A DNA stretch of 64,000 nucleotides from Rugalucina vietnamica (lineage: Eukaryota > Mollusca > Bivalvia > Lucinida > Lucinidae). This document shows, one piece after another, positions 21,401 through 61,020 of this stretch. The notes beneath the pieces are model-generated. The model saw only the letters and a program-made list of their open reading frames with translations, ran no database searches and was not told the DNA's origin. A program made the position numbers and the translations under genes. The stretch is from NCBI GenBank assembly GCA_964017185.1, contig OZ024876.1, positions 13,021,726 to 13,085,725 of the forward strand. Direction: 5' to 3'. Every line of letters starts with the position of its first letter. Position 1 is the stretch's first letter.

Positions 21401-23975
21401 AAAATTGTTAAAATGGCATTTGAAGGGAAAATCTTGCAGGAAATGGGCATGCCAAATAGACTGAAGATTTATGATTCTGAAAAATGGACCCCAGGAGTTG
21501 GGCTGTCTCCACCCTGGGGCAATATACTTGTATAATTCCATACTATTCAAAGATCTTCTCTGAACCCGCTTGGCCAATTAAGCCAAATTTTACTGGAAGC
21601 ATTTATAGGAAGGGGGACCAATGTGTTTATAAATAATCCAAGTCACATGACTAAGATGGCGGCCATGCCCTTCAAAACTCTTCTTTGGAAGGTGATAGCT
21701 GTCCTTAAGCATCATATCATGAATATGTGGGGCTATTAATCTGAAATAAGATAGCCCTACAGTACGCAGCCTCAAAAGGTTCTGGTTTGCCAAAGTTGGA
21801 GTAGATCAAAAGTTGTCATGCAGCAGATCTGTACATTTTTTTTTTATTTTATTTATTTTTTTTTTTTTTTTTTATTTTTTATTTATTTATTTATTTTTTT
21901 TTTTTTTAGCTCACCTGAGCCGTTAGGCTCACAAGGTGAGCTTATAGGATGGCCATGATCCGGCGTCCGTCCGTCGTCCGTCCGTCCACAATTTCAAAGA
22001 TCTTCTTCTCTGAAACCGCTTGGCCAACCAAAGCCAAATTTTATATGAAGCATCTATAGGAAGGGGGAACCAATGTGTATATAAGAAATCCAGGTCACAT
22101 GACCAAGATGGCCGCCATGCCCATATATGGTAAAAACCCTTCAAAAATCTTCTTCTCCAGAACCTGTGGACTGATTTCAACGAAACTTGGCATGAAGCAT
22201 TGATGGCTCAATCACTACAATGTATATATAAATCACGACCCTGTGATGACCTTGACCTATTTTACGGCAAGGTCAACATAGGTCGCCAATGAATTTGAAT
22301 GGGGAAAACTTTTAAAATGTCATTTAAAGTGAAAGTCTTGCAGAAAATGGGCAGTAGGACTGAATATTAATGATTCTGAAAAAAATGGACCCCAGGGGCT
22401 CATATGTCCCCACCCCGGGGCAATATACATGTATATTACCGTAATATTCAAACATCATCTCCTCTGAAACCGGTTGGCCAATCAAAGCCAAATTTTACGT
22501 GAAGCATCAATAGGAAGGGGTTATCAATGTATATATAAATAATCCAGGTCACATGACCAAGATGGCCGCAATGCCCATATATGGTAAAAGCCCTTCAAAA
22601 ATCTTCTTCTCCAGAACCGGTGGATCGATTTCAAAGAAACTTGGCATGAAGCATCGATGGCTCAAGTACTACAATGTGTATATAAATCATGACCCTGTGA
22701 TGACCTTGACCTTTTTTACGGCAAGGTCAACATAGGTCGCCAATGCATTTGAATAGGGAAAACTTTTAAAATGTCATTTAAAGTGAAAGTCTTGCAGGAA
22801 ATGGGCAGTAGGACTGAATATTAATGATTCTGAAAAAAAATGGACCCCAGGGGCTCATCTGCCCCCACCCCGGGGCAATATACATGTATATTACCATAAT
22901 ATTCAAACATCTCCTCTGAAACCGCTTGGCAAATCAAAGCCAAATTTTATGTGAAGCATCTATGGAATGGGGGAATTAATGTACATGTATATATAAATTA
23001 TCTAGTTCACATGACCAAGATGGCTGCCATGCCCATATAAGGTAAAAACCCTCCAAAAATCTTCTTCTCCGAATCTGGTTGACCGATTTCAAAGAAACTT
23101 GGCATAAAGCACCAATGGCTGAAGTACTACAATGTGTATATAAATCATGGCCCTGTGGTGACCTTGACCTATTTTAGGACAAGGTCAACATAGGTCGCCA
23201 ATGCATTGGAACGGGGAAAACTTTTAAAAAGTCATTAGAAGTGAAAATCTTGCAGGAAATGGGTAGTAGGACTAAATATTAATGATTCTGAAAAAAAATT
23301 GGACCTAAGGGCTCATATGTCCACACCCCGGGGCAATATACTTGTATATTACCATAATATTCAAACATCTTCTCCTCTAAAACCACTTGGCCAATTGAAG
23401 CCAAATTTTATGTGAAGCATCTATGGATGGGGGTACCAATGTGCATATTAATAATCTAGGTCACATGACTAAGATGGCCGCCATGCCCATATATGGTAAA
23501 AACCCTTCAGATATCTTCTTCTCTGAAACCGATAGATTGACTTCATTGAAACTTGGCGTGAAGCATTCATGGCAATACTACAATGTATATATGTGATGAC
23601 CTTGACCAAGTTTATGGCAAGGTCAACATGGGTTGCCCATGCATTTGAATGGGAAAAACTGTTAAAATGTCATTTGAAGGGGAAAACCAGCAAGAAATTG
23701 GCAAATGGACAGAATATTGATTATTCTGAAAAAAGAAAACGGCCCATTGGCTTCATCTGCCCCTGCACTGGGGTTAAATACCATAATATTCAAACATGTT
23801 TATTGGTATATGCAGCAGACTCAGGTGAGCGTTTACAGGACCATTGGTCCTCTGGTTTTTTTTTTTGTTTTGCAAAAAGCAGATATTTTTCTCATGACCT
23901 CATTACTCAGTAGTTCAGTTTGGTCATGGCTTAACATCCCAGTCAACAATGTCATTTCAGAATAGAATCACTCAG

Positions 23976-31120: not shown

Positions 31121-31536
31121 TGTACAAATACACAGTGCTCTCGTCTCCAATGCTATACGCCAACTTTTTTTTAAATCCGTCCATGGAACTGGATAAGATT
31201 TTTAAAGGGTTTTTACCATATATGGGCATGGCGGCCATCTTGGCCATGTGACATGGATTATATACACATTGGTTCCCCCTTCCTATAGATGCTTCATTTT
31301 AGTTGGTTCTTGTCTGCTGCATGGCCCACTGGGGTTCAACTGATGTTTTTCTTTTGCTCCAGGTTTCAGCACCCATGATCTCTATCCTCGGGCAGCTTAC
31401 TGAATCTGTGTGTCCTTGTTTAAAGCTCACCTGAGCCGAAGGCCCGCAAGGTGAGCTTATCCATCCGTCGTCGTCCGTCCACAATTTCAAAGATCTTCTC
31501 CTCTGAAAGCGCTGGGCCAATCAAAGCCGAACTTAA

Positions 31537-31600
31537 AAAGGGCTACTGATGAGGGTTCATTACCCGAAATTGTGCAATATAGTCCATACTATCTCCCTTT
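31537..31600 (+). ncRNA. Hammerhead ribozyme (type I), copy 1
   Basis: GGCTA pairs with TAGTC (stem I). The core CTGATGA is followed by stem II GGGT/ACCC with loop TCATT, GAAA, and stem III ATTG/CAAT with a 2-nt loop. Predicted cleavage is after A at 31579 (AUA triplet). AAAG / CTTT can extend stem I beyond an internal loop. Confidence 0.88.
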
Positions 31601-31910
31601 GAATGTTTTTACTGCTTCCAGAGGATCAAACCTTTATATTTTATTTGCTATTACTGCAGCTGGTGTTGTGCCGTGTGGCGGCCCTAAAAAGTCTCCCCGT
31701 ACATCATCCATAGTGCAGATTATATTTTTATTTAGGTCCTTTGAGATTAGTAAAGGTATTCAGAGTGTTCAAAACACCCACGTTTAGAAACATACTTCTA
31801 AGCAATGTTTAAATTAGTTGACTGCGTTTGGAAATGTGTCTTTTATTTAGACCTCTCATGTAAATTTTCGAAATTACAGTACAATAGTCTGGCTTTCGTT
31901 GCCGGCTTAA

Positions 31911-31974
31911 AAAGGGCTACTGATGAGGGTTCATCACCCGAAATTGTGCAATATAGTCCATACTATCTCCCTTT
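31911..31974 (+). ncRNA. Hammerhead ribozyme (type I), copy 2
   Basis: Same core and stems as copy 1; the stem II loop is TCATC. Predicted cleavage is between 31953 and 31954. Confidence 0.9.
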
Positions 31975-32284
31975 GAATGTTTTTACTGCTTCCAGAGGAT
32001 CAAACCTTTATATTTTATTTGCTATTACTGCAGCTGGTGTTGTGCCGTGTGGCGGCCCTAAAAAGTCTCCCCGTACATCATCCATAGTGCAGATTATATT
32101 TTTATTTAGGTCCTTTGAGATTAGTAAAGGTATTCAGAGTGTTCAAAACACCCACGTTTAGAAACATACTTCTAAGCAATGTTTAAATTAGTTGACTGCG
32201 TTTGGAAATGTGTCTTTTATTTAGACCTCTCATGTAAATTTTCGAAATTACAGTACAATAGTCTGGCTTTCGTTGCCGGCTTAA

Positions 32285-32348
32285 AAAGGGCTACTGATGA
32301 GGGTTCATCACCCGAAATTGTGCAATATAGTCCATACTATCTCCCTTT
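32285..32348 (+). ncRNA. Hammerhead ribozyme (type I), copy 3
   Basis: Identical to copy 2 in the ribozyme; predicted cleavage between 32327 and 32328. Confidence 0.9.
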
Positions 32349-32654
32349 GAATGTTTTTACTGCTTCCAGAGGATCATACCTTTATATTTTATTTGCTATT
32401 ACTGCAGCTGGTGTTGTGCCGTGTGGCGGCCCTAAAAAGTCTCCCCGTACATCATCCATAGTGCAGATTATATTTTTATTTTGGTCCTTTGAGATTAGTA
32501 AAGGTATTCAGAGTGTTCAAAACACCCACGTTTAGAAACATACTTCTAAGCAGTTTAAATTAGTTGACTGTTTGGAAATGTGTCTTTTATTTAGACCTCT
32601 CATGTAAATTTTCGAAATTACAGTACAATAGTCTGGCTTTCGTTGCCGGCTTAA

Positions 32655-32718
32655 AAAGGGCTACTGATGAGGGTTCATTACCCGAAATTGTGCAATATAG
32701 TCCATACTATCTCCCTTT
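32655..32718 (+). ncRNA. Hammerhead ribozyme (type I), copy 4
   Basis: Same stems, stem II loop TCATT; predicted cleavage between 32697 and 32698. Confidence 0.9.
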
Positions 32719-33028
32719 GAATGTTTTTACTGCTTCCAGAGGATCAAACCTTTATATTTTATTTGCTATTACTGCAGCTGTTGTTGTGCCATGTGGCGGC
32801 CCTAAAAAGTCTCCCCGTACATCATCCATAGTGCAGATTATATTTTTATTTAGGTCCTTTGAGATTAGTAAAGGTATTCAGAGTGTTCAAAACACCCACG
32901 TTTAGAAACATACTTCTAAGCAATGTTTAAATTAGTTGACTGCGTTTGGAAATGTGTCTTTTATTTAGACCTCTCATGTAAATTTTCGAAATTACAGTAC
33001 AATAGTCTGGCTTTCGTTGCCGGCTTAA

Positions 33029-33092
33029 AAAGGGCTACTGATGAGGGTTCATTACCCGAAATTGTGCAATATAGTCCATACTATCTCCCTTT
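33029..33092 (+). ncRNA. Hammerhead ribozyme (type I), copy 5
   Basis: A complete ribozyme in the last, 3'-truncated unit; predicted cleavage between 33071 and 33072. Confidence 0.88.
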
Positions 33093-33440
33093 GAATGTTT
33101 TTACTGCTTCCAGAGGATCAAACCTTTATATTTTATTCATGTGGAGCATCCTTTAGGAAGGGGGAATGAAATTTTATATAAATGGTTCAGGTCACATGAC
33201 CAAGACGGCCACCATGCCCATATATGGTAAAAACCATAAAAAAATCTTCTCTGGAACCGGTGGACCAATTTCCACGAAACTTGTTATGTAGCATTGGGGA
33301 CTCTGGCCCATCATAGTTTATATAAATCATGACCTTGGGTTGACCTTGACCTATTTCATGGCAAGGTCAATTTTGCTTACATAAGCTTTTCAATGGAAAG
33401 TGAAAATGTTGAATTTTTCAGGAAGTTTTGAAGCCTATGC

Positions 33441-37148: not shown

Positions 37149-40100
37149 CTGTAAAAAATAATGTATTGATTATCCAGAGACAACCAGTGCAACTGGGAAT
37201 AACAGCTGCAGGGCGACTGGGAATAACAGCCACTGATGAAATCAATACAAGATTATAGTATTCTAATACCTATCTGGGTACAACTTTACACGGATCCATT
37301 ATGAAAACTTGTCCATGCTATATACAGAGATTTGTTCAATTTCTAAAAATTGAAACTTGGAAAAGTTTTGATATTTTTAATATATTTGCTCCAAACATTG
37401 ATTGTGGGTACACATTGTGAGGCAGTTCTAACAAGTACCCACACTCTCTGTTTTAGATCAAAAACAAGAAAATTAGGTATACCCCTGCAAACCACCGTTG
37501 TACTCTAAACTAGAAAATGTGTTTATGAAACACTATGCCCCCAACTGGTAAGTCACTTTCAAGATGTAAAAATGTCCAAAAATGACTAAGTTCAAATTGT
37601 AAACTAGAGGACCATTGGTCCTGTAGCTCACCTGAGAGATTATCACATTGTAAGCTCATGAGATTTAAACTAATTGAGAATCGACCAATGAAAGTCTATG
37701 CATGGACACTATTGACCCCCGGGGCATGGCCAAATTTGACCCAGGGGCATGACTGGCACAATTTATAATGGGGACTACCAAACATTGCTACATACAAAAT
37801 ATAGAAGCTCTGGGCCTTTTGGTTTCAGAGAAGAAGATTTTTGTTAGTTTTTCCCATTGTAAGTCTATGGAGACTAACTACCCCCGGGGCGTGGCCAAAT
37901 TTGACCCCAGGGGCATGGCTGGCACAATTTATGTAGAGGACTATTAGCCATTGCCACATACAAAATATCAAAGCTGTGTGCACTGTGGTTTCAGAGAAGA
38001 AGATTTTTGAATTTTTTCCCATAGCAAGTCTATTGAGACTATCAACCTCCGGGGCCTGGCCAAATTTGACCCCAGGGGCATGAATGGAACAATTTATGTA
38101 GAGGACCATTAGCCATTGCTACATACCAAATATCAAAGCTGTGGGCCTAGTTAGCTCACCTGAGCCGAAGGCTCACAAGGTGAGCTAATAGGATGGCCAT
38201 GATCCGGCGTCCGTCCGTCGTCGTCCACAATTTCAAAAATCTTCTTCTCTGAAACCGCTTGGCCGATCTAGTTGAAATTTTATGTGGAGCCTCCTTGGGT
38301 AGTGGCATTTCAAGTTTGATCGCGAAATCCAGGTCACATGACCAAGATGGCCGCCACGCCCATATATGTTAAAAACCGCTCAAAAATCTTCTTCTCCAGA
38401 ACCGGTGGGCCGATTTCCTCTAAACTTGGTATGTAGCATCGGGGACTTAAGCCCATCATAGTTTGACAAAATGATGACCCTTGGATGACCTTGACCTATT
38501 TTACGGCAAGGTCAAATTTGGAAACATAGGCTTTTACATGGGAAAAAGTGAAAACTATGGATTTTTTGAAAACTATTGCAGCCTGAGGCCTGAAAAGTGG
38601 TAGATGCAAACAACTAATGGAGTAGATGAAGGTATGTGATTAATTTAGGTCAAGGTCATCTCTTGACCTTGGCCAGTCTGTCGTCCATACACACTTTTCA
38701 AAGATCTTCTTCTCTGAAATTGCTGGGCCAATCAAAGTGAAATTTTATGTGGAGCATCCATGGGTAGGGGAGACGAAAGTTTGATCGCGAAATCCAGGTC
38801 ACATGACCAAGATGGCCGCCACGCCCATATATGGTAAAAACCACTCAAAAATCTTCTTCTCCAGAACCGGCAGGCCGATTTTCATGAAATTTGGTATGTA
38901 GCATTTGGGACTCCAGCCCATCATAGTTTGATAAAATGATGACCCTAGGATGACCTTGACTTATTTTACGGCAAGGTCAATTTTGGAAACATAGGCTTTT
39001 ACATGTGAAAAAGTGAAAACTATGGATTTTTTGAAAACTATTGCAGCCTGATGCCTGAAAAGTGGTGGATGCAAACAACTAATGGAGTAGATGAAGGTAT
39101 ATGATTAATTTAGGTCAAGGTCATCTCTTGACCTTGGCCAGTCTGTCGTCCATACACACTTTTCACAGATCTTCTTCTCTGAAACTGCTGGGCCAATCAA
39201 AGTGAAATTTTATGTGGAGCATCCATGGGTAGGGGAGACGAAAGTTTGATCGTGAAATCCAGGTCACATGACCAAGATGGCTGCCACGCCCATATATGGT
39301 AAAACCACTCAAAAATCTTCTTCTCCAGAACCGGCAGGCCAATTTTCGCGAAAGTTTGTATGTAGCATTTTGGACTCCAGCCCATCATAGTTTGATCAAA
39401 TGCTGACCATAGGATGACCTTGACCTATTTTGCGGCAAGGTCAATTTTGGAAACATAGGCTTTTTCATGGGAAAAGGCGAAAACAATGGATATTTTGGAA
39501 ACTGTTGCAGTCTGAGACCTGAAAGTTGCTAGATGCAGACAACTGATGGAGTCAATGAAGGTAAGTAATTAATGATGGCCAAGGTCATTTCTTGACCTTG
39601 ACCCAAGGTCATTTGAATATCAAAATTAAAATTATAGTTTTCTCAGAAATCACTGGGTTTGGAAACTATTGCAGCCTGAGACCTGAATCTTTGCAGATGC
39701 AGACAACTTATGAATTCAATAAAGGTGTGTGAGTATTCAAGGTCAAGGTCATTTCATGATGACTTAATACTCCAGGATCAGGCTTCAGGTGAGCGTTCTC
39801 AGGACCATTGGTCCTCTGGTGGTTTCAGAGAAGAAGATTTTTTATTTTTTTTTCCCATAGTAAGTCTATGGAGACTATCAACCCCCGGGGCGTGGCCAAA
39901 TTTGACCCCAGGGGCATGAATGGCACAATTTGTGTAGAGGACCATTAGCAATTGCTACATACCAAATATCAAAGCTGTGGGCCTAGTGGTTTCAGAGAAG
40001 AAGATTTTTTTAGTTTTTCCAATTGTAGGTCTATGGAGACTATCGACCCCCGGGGCGTGGCCAAATTTGACCCCGGGGACATGATTGGCACAATTTATGT

Positions 40101-53765: not shown

Positions 53766-54677
53766 TCACAAGAGAACAAGAGATGCGAACTTGGACACAC
53801 AGTCATCAGACATTTCAGCAGAGGAGATCAGAGAATCAGGGAGGTCATTCCAGTCCCTGATAGTCTGTGGAAAGAAATTACTTTTATACGCTTCTTTGCT
53901 AGCTGAAGGTATCTGAAAAGCCAAAGAGTGTTGATTTCTACAAGGCCTATTGTTTGGGATAAGGTCTTCTGTAGGTATTCTGGCTTTACCCTTTAGACCT
54001 TTGTATAGCAATATAAGTCTACTATCCTTCCTCCTTTTCTTAAGAGATTCCCATTTCAGTTGACCTAAAATGCCAGTCATGCTCCCAGTTTCGAAAACAT
54101 AATTTCCAGTCACAAACCTTGCCGCACGATTTTTGACCTTTTCCAGTTCTTCTCGGAGGCCATGGGTGTGAGGGTCCCAAACTGAGCTTCCATATTCCAA
54201 GACTGGTCGCACCAGGCTTTTATAAGCTGCTTCTTTCACAAATGGGGGACAAGAATACAAATTTCTCCTCAAGAATCCGAGAGTTCTGTTAGCCTTTGTA
54301 CAAACATTGGAAATATGAGTATTCCATTTCAAATCATTTGCGATAATTACACCTAGGTATTTTATGCTTTCAATGTTTTCCAGTACAGTGCCCTCTAGGA
54401 TGTAGTTAGCCTGTATCTTACTAGATCGTTTATTTGTCAGCTGCATCATGTTGCATTTGACGGGTTGAAATCTCATTCCCCATTTCCTAGCCCAACTGCC
54501 TAAACGATCAATGTCTCTCTGAAGATTCAAGGTATCCTCTTCATTCTTGATTTCACGATAGCAAACACAATCATCAGCAAAGAGTCTTATTTCAGACTCG
54601 ATGTCTGCTGAGATGTCATTTATATACATGGAAAACAGCAAGGGGCCGAGAACTGTGCCTTGAGGGACACCCGACAC
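53766..54677 (-). pseudogene. LINE A reverse transcriptase, palm to C-terminus
   Basis: 303 open codons. SGVPQGTVLGPLLFSMYIND is RT motif B and LFADDCVCY is the catalytic motif C with FADD in place of the usual YADD. KYLGVII follows, then the C-terminal YKSLVRPVLEYGSSVWDPHT and DWNDLPDSLISS. RT copies the LINE RNA at the nicked target. The segment is intact in itself but cut off from its N-terminal part by the foldback insertion. Confidence 0.92.
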
Positions 54678-54770
54678 AACTGGAGCACAATCTGATTTAA
54701 TACCATTTACCAGTACCCGTTGTTGTCTGAAATAAAGGAAAGCATTTATCCAATTCAGTGTTGTTCCACA

Positions 54771-54930
54771 TTCACCATTTTTGCATTATCTGCTGGTTCC
54801 CAGCTTTAAAAAATCAATATTGGAAATACAGGTAACCAGAACCTCCCCTGAGGGGGGTTACTGGTTACCTGTTTTTTCCAATATTGATTTTTGTCAGCAG
54901 GAAACCAGCCGATAATGCAAAAACGGTGAA
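54771..54930. repeat. 160-bp near-perfect palindrome inserted in the LINE A RT
   Basis: Arms TTCACCATTTTTGCATTATC and GATAATGCAAAAACGGTGAA continue inward through CCAATATTGATTTTT and AGGTAACCAG to CCCCTGAGGGG. Confidence 0.85.
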
Positions 54931-58661: not shown

Positions 58662-59081
58662 TCAAAGTTCCATAGACAGGGCCATGATCACTAAGCCTGT
58701 CGGGGAATGAATTTCAACAAATTGTCCGGGAAGTGAAGTGATAATCAAATCCAATGTGTTTAGTCCTCTCGTGGGGAAGTGCACTACCCGCTCTAATTCA
58801 TGATAATTAATGAGTTTTACCAACATGATACCTTCAGACATGCTCATTGAAGAACCTTGTTTATTGAGTCGATCTGGCCAAATAATATCTCTGAAGTTGA
58901 AATCAAACATGGACTGAGAGAGGGGTGTTTCCACTATGTAACGTTTTAACCTTTTCAATTTGATTTTGAACAACTCAAGTTCATCTACCTTTCTATCAGG
59001 AGGTCGATACCAACTTGCCACAAAATGAGAAGTTTTGTTTGCAATTACCTTTACCCAAACTGAATCAGAGTCATTATCCAT
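58662..59081 (-). pseudogene. LINE B endonuclease fragment
   Basis: FVASWYRPP, FDFNFRDIIWPDRLNKQG and LNTLDLIITSLPGQFVEIHS, close to LINE A. The SDH motif is lost by a frameshift near 58690. Confidence 0.87.
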
Positions 59082-59375
59082 TTCAGTGATCGGGATATGA
59101 ATAAAAATAAAACTGAAGAATATCTTTACGTATGAGTAACATCACGCCACCACCATCAAGAGTTCTCTAGATTATCTTTCCTATACACATTGTAAGGACA
59201 AGTTTCTGGGAACAATTCTGAGGTTGATATAGTGCTGTCATTTTCAGTTTCTTGAATGGCAACAATCTGAGGTTGATGGAGATCAAGGAAGGCCAACAAC
59301 TCAAGTTTTGTTTTACCTCTAATACTTTTGACATTTATGCTTGAAAATTTTAACCACTGATAAACTTATTTTTGT

Positions 59376-59912
59376 TTATTCCAGATTCACAAGTTTAAGT
59401 ACCACAGCTACTATCGTTTGACATGGAGCAAATCTATTTTGTTCTTCCAAGTTTAATTTATCAGAAAAGAATGAATCCGAGAAGTTGAAGAAGTCACATT
59501 TTGGACAAATCCATGAACAATTCGAATTTTGTATATTTTCATACTGGGTTTCTGAGACAAGGGAGCCTTTATTGTGGACCCACATTTCACATTTGTCATA
59601 TTGAACAGGATTTGCACATGTCGCATAAAAGCGCTTTTCGCAGTCATTGCATGTAACAAATTTGTCGGTTGCATTACAATATTTTTTGCATAGCCGACAC
59701 AGGAACCTAGGACCTTGGTTAATTTTGATGTCTCCAGCCAGGATGAAAGGTGAGCAGGCTGGTTCTTTTGGGAGGCTTAACATTTTGTAGACCTTCAGAA
59801 CTTCTGCGATTACCAAGCTTCCTTGAGTATGCCAAAATTGTGAAATATTGCCTGAAGTTGTTTTTTTTTCAATATATGATTCGGGTCCAAGGAACATGTA
59901 GAGTTGATCCAC
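59376..59912 (-). pseudogene. LINE B N-terminal ORF with PHD-like zinc finger
   Basis: 178 codons. The first half holds DIKINQGP, a motif common at LINE polyprotein starts. It is followed by the Cys/His ladder CRLCKKYC, CNDCEKRFYATCA, HNKGS and WICPKCD, matching a PHD finger. In LINEs such fingers are thought to bind chromatin or nucleic acid. Confidence 0.8.
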
Positions 59913-60522: not shown

Positions 60523-61020
60523 TATCTGAATCTGAATCTGAATGGTTTACTGGTGACATGCAAAATTGACAATACTTCACCAGGAGGGAAATCAGTCCCT
60601 GACTCTCACAAAAGATGTGAACTTGGTTGGACACACAGTCATCAGACATTTCAGCAGAGGAGATCAGAGAATCATGGAGGTCATTCAAGTCCCTATAGTC
60701 TGTGGAAAAAAATGTACGTTTCTTTGATAGCTGATGGTATCTAAAATGCCATAGAGTGTTGATTTTTACAATGCCTGTTCTTCGGGATAAGGTCATCTAT
60801 AGGTATTCTGGCTTTACCCTTTAGACCTTTGTAAAGCAGTATAGATACTAAAAGAGCAGTGAACACATTAATGAGAAAGGGGATGGGCCATACCGCGGTT
60901 TCGACTATTAAAGTCTCGTCAGTGACCTTTTTGATTTGGCAACATGGAGCCAAAGAGAATTACAGTCTACTATCCTTCCTCAACTTCTTAAGAGATTACC
61001 ATTTTAGTTGACCTAAAATG
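60523..61020 (-). mobile_element. LINE copy C, 3' end fragment
   Basis: KGLKGKARIPIDDLIPKNRH and DLNDLHDSLISSAEMSDDCV match the C-terminus of LINE A. It ends in a (TTCAGA)n tail at about 60523-60540. A foreign segment of about 120 bp sits at 60843-60962. Confidence 0.85.

Follow-up and report, generated by a model that had tools for sequence, protein, structure and literature searches.

A dispersed non-LTR retrozyme with a fixed internal 3' end in a bivalve genome

Introduction

How did a tandem array of hammerhead ribozymes come to lie inside a GCTCAC repeat of a bivalve genome, and what copied it there? The array lies in a stretch of 64,000 nucleotides, here called the window. Metazoan non-LTR retrozymes are known from coral, mussel and axolotl, in which their circular RNAs have been shown (PMC7229834); the enzyme that spreads animal retrozymes and the point on the circle at which copying starts are treated as open questions in the available text of two papers (PMC7761336, PMC7229834). 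We put at roughly 0.7 the probability that the window array arose when a non-autonomous animal retrozyme of the non-LTR kind inserted here, copied by internal initiation of reverse transcription and with a fixed 3' end. The retrozyme class itself is known; the fixed internal 3' end and a block of sequence shared between families may be new.

The Window Array and Its Five Ribozymes

A first-pass annotation, made from the letters of the window, had described five hammerhead copies in tandem and read them as a candidate retrozyme. A scan for the pattern CTGATGA-N-CGAAA found 5 occurrences against 0.19 expected. A hammerhead descriptor (stem I of at least 4 bp, CTGANGA, stem II, GAAA, stem III, UH, stem I') reported exactly the same five type I hammerhead ribozymes (HHRs) on the plus strand of the window, and gave 0 matches on both strands of 60 dinucleotide-block shuffles of the 64 kb. 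TRF described the array as 374 bp x 4.3 copies (31532-33137, 98% matches).

31533..33137, plus strand: retrozyme array, family 1 (TRF, 31532-33137; BLAST with the unit)
31540..31585, plus strand: type I HHR 1 (descriptor), predicted cleavage 31579|31580
31914..31959, plus strand: type I HHR 2, loop II variant C (descriptor), predicted cleavage 31953|31954; Rfam RAGATH-1 in register, 14.7 bits, below threshold
32288..32333, plus strand: type I HHR 3, loop II variant C (descriptor), predicted cleavage 32327|32328
32658..32703, plus strand: type I HHR 4 (descriptor), predicted cleavage 32697|32698
33032..33077, plus strand: type I HHR 5 (descriptor), predicted cleavage 33071|33072

The predicted cleavage sites are spaced 374, 374, 370 and 374 nt apart, in agreement with the 374-nt (once 370-nt) monomers proposed earlier. 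Numbering the unit from the first nucleotide after predicted cleavage, the array opens with a 5'-truncated copy, continues through four full units (374, 374, 370 and 374 nt) and closes with a 66-nt piece stopping at the usual 3' end of family 1. All five ribozymes have the core and stems first described, with stem I one pair longer than had been claimed: stem I is 6 bp (GGGCTA/TAGTCC), stem II is GGGT/ACCC, and stem III is ATTG/CAAT with a 2-nt loop. Inside the ribozyme the window copies differ by T or C in the stem II loop and by nothing else, as the annotation had stated. The window motifs are thus canonical type I HHRs with all core residues and three helices, and they are predicted to cleave themselves.

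Units 1 and 2 (31580-32327) are identical, including loop variant C, and the remaining window HHRs have T; this identity suggests an exchange between units after insertion. The GC content of the family-1 unit is 0.377. Candidate Pol III boxes in the unit, judged by eye, were dropped because of the T-runs in the unit.

Support for the Hammerhead Fold

The window holds one further ribozyme, on which the first-pass annotation of the array is silent and which belongs to a family other than that of the array.

60843..60965, minus strand: family-3 fragment with a complete HHR at 60886-60927 (descriptor)

Its stem II (GACT/AGTC) and stem III (ACC/GGT) are unlike those of family 1.

The annotation had named a covariance-model score below the noise level as one outcome that would refute it. 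Rfam gave 0 matches to the window array at the gathering threshold and no hammerhead match on 2 kb at E<=5; on 101 nt the sole match was RAGATH-1-hammerhead (14.7 bits, E 2.2), aligned in register. The minus-strand motif scored 19.9 bits with RAGATH-1 and 14.4 bits with Hammerhead_1, in register and below threshold. As far as Rfam goes, these scores formally tell against the annotation, but the only model to match the array was a hammerhead model in register. Three Penelope-like stretches of the same genome carry HHR-like motifs that likewise went unreported at E<=1, and we therefore take these misses to reflect low sensitivity of the models.

Covariation was examined in 16 distinct HHRs of the genome (2 from the window array, 14 from other loci), hand-picked to cover the variants rather than drawn at random. 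Standard pairs filled 95.9% of the pair cells and four pairs had double changes; controls with the partner slid by 1-3 columns gave at most 47.7% standard cells and one double-change pair. The covariation score, the number of paired cells and the number of cells with a double change were reached by 0 of 500 shuffles. Two of the five measures were weak (double-change pairs were reached by 32 of 500 shuffles and pair types by 100 of 500), and all these counts refer to rows that are kin, a relatedness that shuffling does not remove. The comparison suggests that the HHR stems covary between families. The lowest variability of the family-1 unit was at positions 341-360, the catalytic core and stem II (0.008 over 65 units; 0.006 with one unit from each of 36 loci).

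Free-energy folding of the isolated HHR stretch was no better than that of shuffles (z near 0), which counts against a ribozyme and to which we gave little weight. The whole monomer folded with z -1.79 against shuffles.

Copies in the Genome

The exact 24-nt HHR core occurs 1506 times (739 + 767) in the 1.09-Gb genome, and its reversed control 0 times. We read 60 loci with their flanks, the window included: the first 39 were those nearest to the window unit, among the best 40 of 2813 candidates, and a further 20 came from perfect matches to a 100-nt block, so that this second set is biased to the block. Because loci were chosen by likeness to the window unit or the block, young copies prevail in the sample. 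Four of the 60 were judged duplicates of L022 or L074 and left out, leaving 56 in the counts of ends. Their arrays are 0.7 to 4.3 units long, with one of 14.2 units, and 48 of the 56 have at most 2.45 units. Divergence between units is 2.5% within an array and 5.8% between arrays. A search for this HHR in viral contigs gave 0 matches.

Family 2 was first found in L046, and family 3, with a unit of 377 nt, forms a tandem array elsewhere in the genome (L117). L046 (oriented 1118-2452) is a mosaic in which a short family-2-like piece is followed by family-1 units; these end at position 66 and directly abut position 328 of family-2 units, and the latter stop in turn at the 3' end proper to family 2. 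The arrangement looks like template switching or nested insertion.

Insertion Sites

The first-pass annotation had placed the array inside a GCTCAC repeat, and paralogues within the window give that site without the insertion.

31422..31532, plus strand: left flank, the GCTCAC repeat that took the insertion; it resumes at 33138 (comparison of paralogues)

Two empty paralogues (from 5990 and from 29736) read AAACTTCATGT across the site, so the window copy has no duplication, or one of at most about 3 bp; most other GCTCAC paralogues in the window read AAATTTTATGT or similar. Junction repeats of at least 7 nt (7-20 nt) were present at 6 of 49 loci, against 1.3% when the flanks of different loci were paired, and the longest, 20 nt at L009, sits in a local tandem repeat. 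These lengths agree with the TSD of more than 4 bp that metazoan retrozymes have when one is present. Among 34 loci, six having been set aside, the 3' end is followed by C in 16 cases and by A in 13. Flanks common to loci at the junction were found among 55 loci only for three insertions in one repeat: L038, L044 and L077 have different 5' ends and one common site, TTTT|ACAGG, a hint of target choice.

Type I HHRs in tandem, a 374-bp unit, dispersal through the genome, insertion into other repeats and junction repeats in a minority of loci support the retrozyme reading first proposed for this locus: the window array is a dispersed non-LTR retrozyme of the metazoan type.

The GCTCAC-type family that hosts the insertion occupies many places between 5990 and 39600 of the window, and includes 454-465-bp tandem arrays at 22004-23734 and 38231-39600 (TRF). 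A preference for insertion beside older retrozymes was considered and rejected (7 matches in 43 kb of near flank versus about 4 in 54 kb farther out, the interrupted arrays L015, L081, L084 and L087 being left out); of the older retrozymes in the near flank, 6 of 7 have the same orientation.

Fixed 3' Ends and Scattered 5' Ends

The insertions start and stop inside the unit and have no constant terminal repeat. Their two ends behave differently.

33130..33138, plus strand: 3' end of the insertion at unit position 66, TTTTATT|CATG, where most copies read stop; proposed start of reverse transcription

In 49 of the 56 loci the array ends at unit position 61-72, that is, 61-72 nt past the cleavage site (binomial p 1e-65). 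Among the seven exceptions, L015, L033, L081 and L087 are interrupted by other sequence and then resume, ending at 65-66; L073 ends at 77, L089 at 26, and L040 is undecided. The other families behave alike: 3' ends fell at 61-72 in 32 of 37 terminal rows of family 2 among the matches listed (the other five at 48-55), and at 65-69 in five of six copies of family 3 (L018, L114-L117), the window fragment ending at 48. The 5' ends fall all over the unit: a uniform distribution was not rejected (KS p 0.48, n=55), and the HHR region held more of them than expected (15 of 55, p 0.005). Correcting L084 for a nested break raises the latter count to 16 of 55 and leaves the KS p at 0.48. A fixed 3' end with scattered 5' ends is characteristic of target-primed reverse transcription that begins at a defined site, and a start that lies inside a tandem unit implies internal initiation.

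These ends bear on two readings in which reverse transcription has no part. In one, the array is an ordinary satellite, spread and lengthened by unequal crossing-over or DNA circles, and its HHR-like motifs have no function. The tandem layout, the identity of window units 1 and 2 and the lower divergence within arrays than between them are what a satellite would show; the combination of a fixed 3' end with 5' ends that scatter, flanks that are for the most part unrelated, covarying HHR stems and the existence of empty sites are not, and we regard this reading as very improbable. In the other, the array is cargo of a Helentron or another DNA transposon, as reported for satellite-like arrays of oysters (PMC7492417), and short tandem arrays are indeed dispersed in this mollusc genome. 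The 55 loci have no constant flanking element, only the three insertions in one repeat being alike, and their 5' ends are scattered; we consider cargo transport the most far-fetched of the explanations weighed here.

The Template

The arrays extend across the cleavage site, and no more than 2 of 55 begin at it, which disfavours a cut linear monomer as template. Internal initiation of reverse transcription on a circular RNA is probably the route. In such a cycle, genomic arrays would be transcribed and their HHRs would cleave the transcripts into 374-nt monomers, to be circularised by a host ligase, by analogy with published animal retrozymes. The reverse transcriptase of an autonomous element would then bind a module of the circle, comprising a rod stem with an AU-rich internal loop and the hairpin predicted at about 64-141, with the block as the presumed site of binding. 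Copying would begin at position ~66 from a nicked, T-rich target, and the enzyme would run one to several rounds of the circle, stopping at varied points. Copying of this kind would give every insertion the same 3' end, a variable 5' end and a unit count that is not a whole number.

The template might instead be an uncut multimeric read-through transcript, which would equally carry arrays across the HHR site; insertion by the Penelope-like element (PLE) of Anolis proceeds in vitro without cleavage (PMC11167929). Copies of such a transcript would often carry the 5' flank of their source, given that 48 of 56 arrays are no longer than 2.45 units, and no pair of the 55 loci has a common 5' flank up to the junction save for one shared target repeat. 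This test is weak, since the locus from which an insertion was copied may lie outside the sample. Animal retrozymes are also described as making abundant circles (PMC7229834), and we judge the read-through template unlikely. If the circular template were confirmed, the element would be a natural case of retrotransposition from circular RNA with a minimal cis element.

A Block Shared by Three Families

The insertion 3' end coincides with the beginning of a block that is common to the three families.

31639..31718, plus strand: shared block, unit positions 60-139, in unit 1; repeats at 32013-32092, 32387-32466 and 32757-32836

Positions 60-139 were identical when a single unit from each of the three families was aligned; outside them identity was 72% (families 1 and 2), 56% (1 and 3) and 61% (2 and 3). 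Within family 1, variability per site, with the HHR core left out, was 0.013 in the block versus 0.042 in the rest for the first set of loci, which includes three near-duplicates, and 0.010 versus 0.040 without them and with one unit per locus. We infer that constraint, and not recombination between families, has kept the block uniform; under either explanation, it would be needed or favoured.

The three families have a common predicted fold, in which positions 17-48 pair with 156-187 as a rod stem, followed by an AU-rich internal loop and a hairpin of the block at 64-141, with the insertion end at the foot of this hairpin. Two-sided changes occur in 10 of the 93 predicted pairs and none of them lies within the block, whose invariance leaves its hairpin outside any covariation test; folded alone, the block was no better than shuffles (z -0.36). 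The rod with a terminal hairpin is only a prediction. We also infer that the block may act as the module that recruits the reverse transcriptase.

Exact copies of the block's first 29 nt number 4048 in the genome. A slightly shorter pattern following a non-A base gave 147 matches; the 100 listed are mostly T-rich variants, and some have unrelated upstream sequence and were read as 5'-truncated copies. Six matches in odd contexts (6 of 187), examined as candidates for the block outside retrozymes, all turned out to be family-3-like copies, and none of the matches inspected belonged to an autonomous element with the block.

The Reverse Transcriptase Partner

The retrozyme unit, at 374 nt, is too short for an RT/GIY-YIG ORF, and the available text of PMC7761336 states that retrozyme repeats show no conserved motif that helps to deduce an autonomous partner. 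A search of the genome for the GIY-YIG family gave at least 150 matches (the best 150 of 451 candidates), and a PLE ORF in it is 943 aa long. At L060 (G000:C15:425918-437860), PLEs follow one another in tandem every 3893 bp, with GIY-YIG in frames of up to 964 codons; between the ORFs lies an HHR-like motif, and about 158 nt downstream of it, in a predicted hairpin loop, an insertion end.

In PLE-B, 31 of 45 rows end about 158 nt after the HHR-like motif and 12 rows read through, counting from a cleavage point set by eye in a motif that the descriptor scan did not report; the end falls within the loop of a predicted hairpin (z -2.66). In PLE-F, 11 of 57 rows end 51 nt after the HHR-like motif, and another 42 reach the end of the query, so that their own end is unseen. 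The fixed end of the retrozyme, 61-72 nt past cleavage, is thus comparable with the 51 and about 158 nt of PLEs in the same genome. The PLE protein of Anolis also initiates reverse transcription internally: the start lies 111-118 nt into an ORF in which the HHR cleaves at 26, the first 172 nt of this ORF are required, and insertion in vitro did not depend on cleavage (PMC11167929).

This layout in common, an HHR and then a fixed end tens of nucleotides downstream, makes a PLE the most likely donor of the reverse transcriptase, at about even odds and by analogy of layout. Comparison of the unit with PLE stretches (7 stretches and 11 family-A loci in one comparison, 20 stretches in another) gave no convincing match (16-29-nt pieces, best E 0.056), and the PLE ends seen adjoin (TA)n, while the retrozyme ends lie mostly before CA or A.

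The same retrozyme might be mobilised by a LINE, through ordinary target-primed reverse transcription and with no PLE involved. A fixed 3' end, 5' truncation and occasional junction repeats of 7-20 nt are LINE-like, the window has LINE fragments, and the lack of a sequence match to PLEs fits. A 3' end inside a tandem unit does not fit, nor does the absence of a clear TSD from most copies; and the conserved block 3' of the end resembles the RNA that PLE internal initiation needs 3' of its start. We hold a LINE partner to be a real but lesser possibility. For the PLE partner we tentatively propose a broader form, in which animal retrozymes would parasitise PLE reverse transcriptases with a circular RNA as template, the ~80-nt block serving as docking site and reverse transcription starting at its edge, ~66 nt past the cut. 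If this is true, the block would identify which enzyme is the partner, filling the gap in the retrozyme life cycle. The fixed start site and the shared block make the question of the partner testable at the bench.

At L064 and its relatives, inverted PLE pairs surround (TA)n in several places; the inverted piece ends 51 nt past the HHR and the main copy runs further. Such pairs resemble the two starts of reverse transcription reported for the Anolis element.

Relation to Known Elements

The nearest known elements are the metazoan non-LTR retrozymes of Cervera and de la Pena (2020, PMC7229834). Their tandem units measure 170-400 nt and carry type I HHRs, GC lies below 50%, and several families occur per genome alongside PLEs, all of which applies here; their mussel family is the closest, with a unit of about 350-390 bp against 374 bp. 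Tandem units of ~150-450 bp with one HHR each are typical of the class, and those of the window measure 374, 374, 370 and 374 bp; dispersal in many copies, likewise typical, is seen in the 1506 exact cores. The fixed internal 3' end and the family-shared block were not found in the open-licence main texts consulted. Four 18-20-nt words, two from the block and one from each of two HHRs, were not found in open-licence literature text, which says little because such sequence is rarely printed in running text.

PLEs with an HHR in the pseudo-LTR (PMC11167929) are alike in the HHR, in a fixed start of reverse transcription tens of nucleotides downstream and in tandem copies. The retrozyme differs in having no room for RT/GIY-YIG, in its target context from the PLE ends seen and in the 4-bp stem III of its HHR, and the unit has no convincing sequence match to the PLE stretches sampled. 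Plant LTR retrozymes, as described in the same account of animal retrozymes (PMC7229834), also have HHRs in repeats, are non-autonomous and form circular RNA, but their HHRs are of type III and they have LTRs, a PBS, a PPT and a 4-bp TSD, whereas here the HHRs are of type I and no terminal repeat is constant. Schistosome W-elements carry HHRs in repetitive transcribed elements, and no analysis of fixed ends was found in the available text of PMC8490949.

The retrozyme end lies inside a tandem unit and copies exceed one unit, unlike those of SINEs. SINEs are non-autonomous elements with 5' truncation and a fixed 3' end, traits that they have in common with the retrozyme.

Other Sequence in the Window

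LINE-like fragments lie on the minus strand at 53769-54785, 58665-59141 and 59379-59912. They gave a match to RVT_1 (E 2.7e-17) and, weakly and below the cut-off, to Exo_endo_phos_2; an ORF among them matched a PHD finger.
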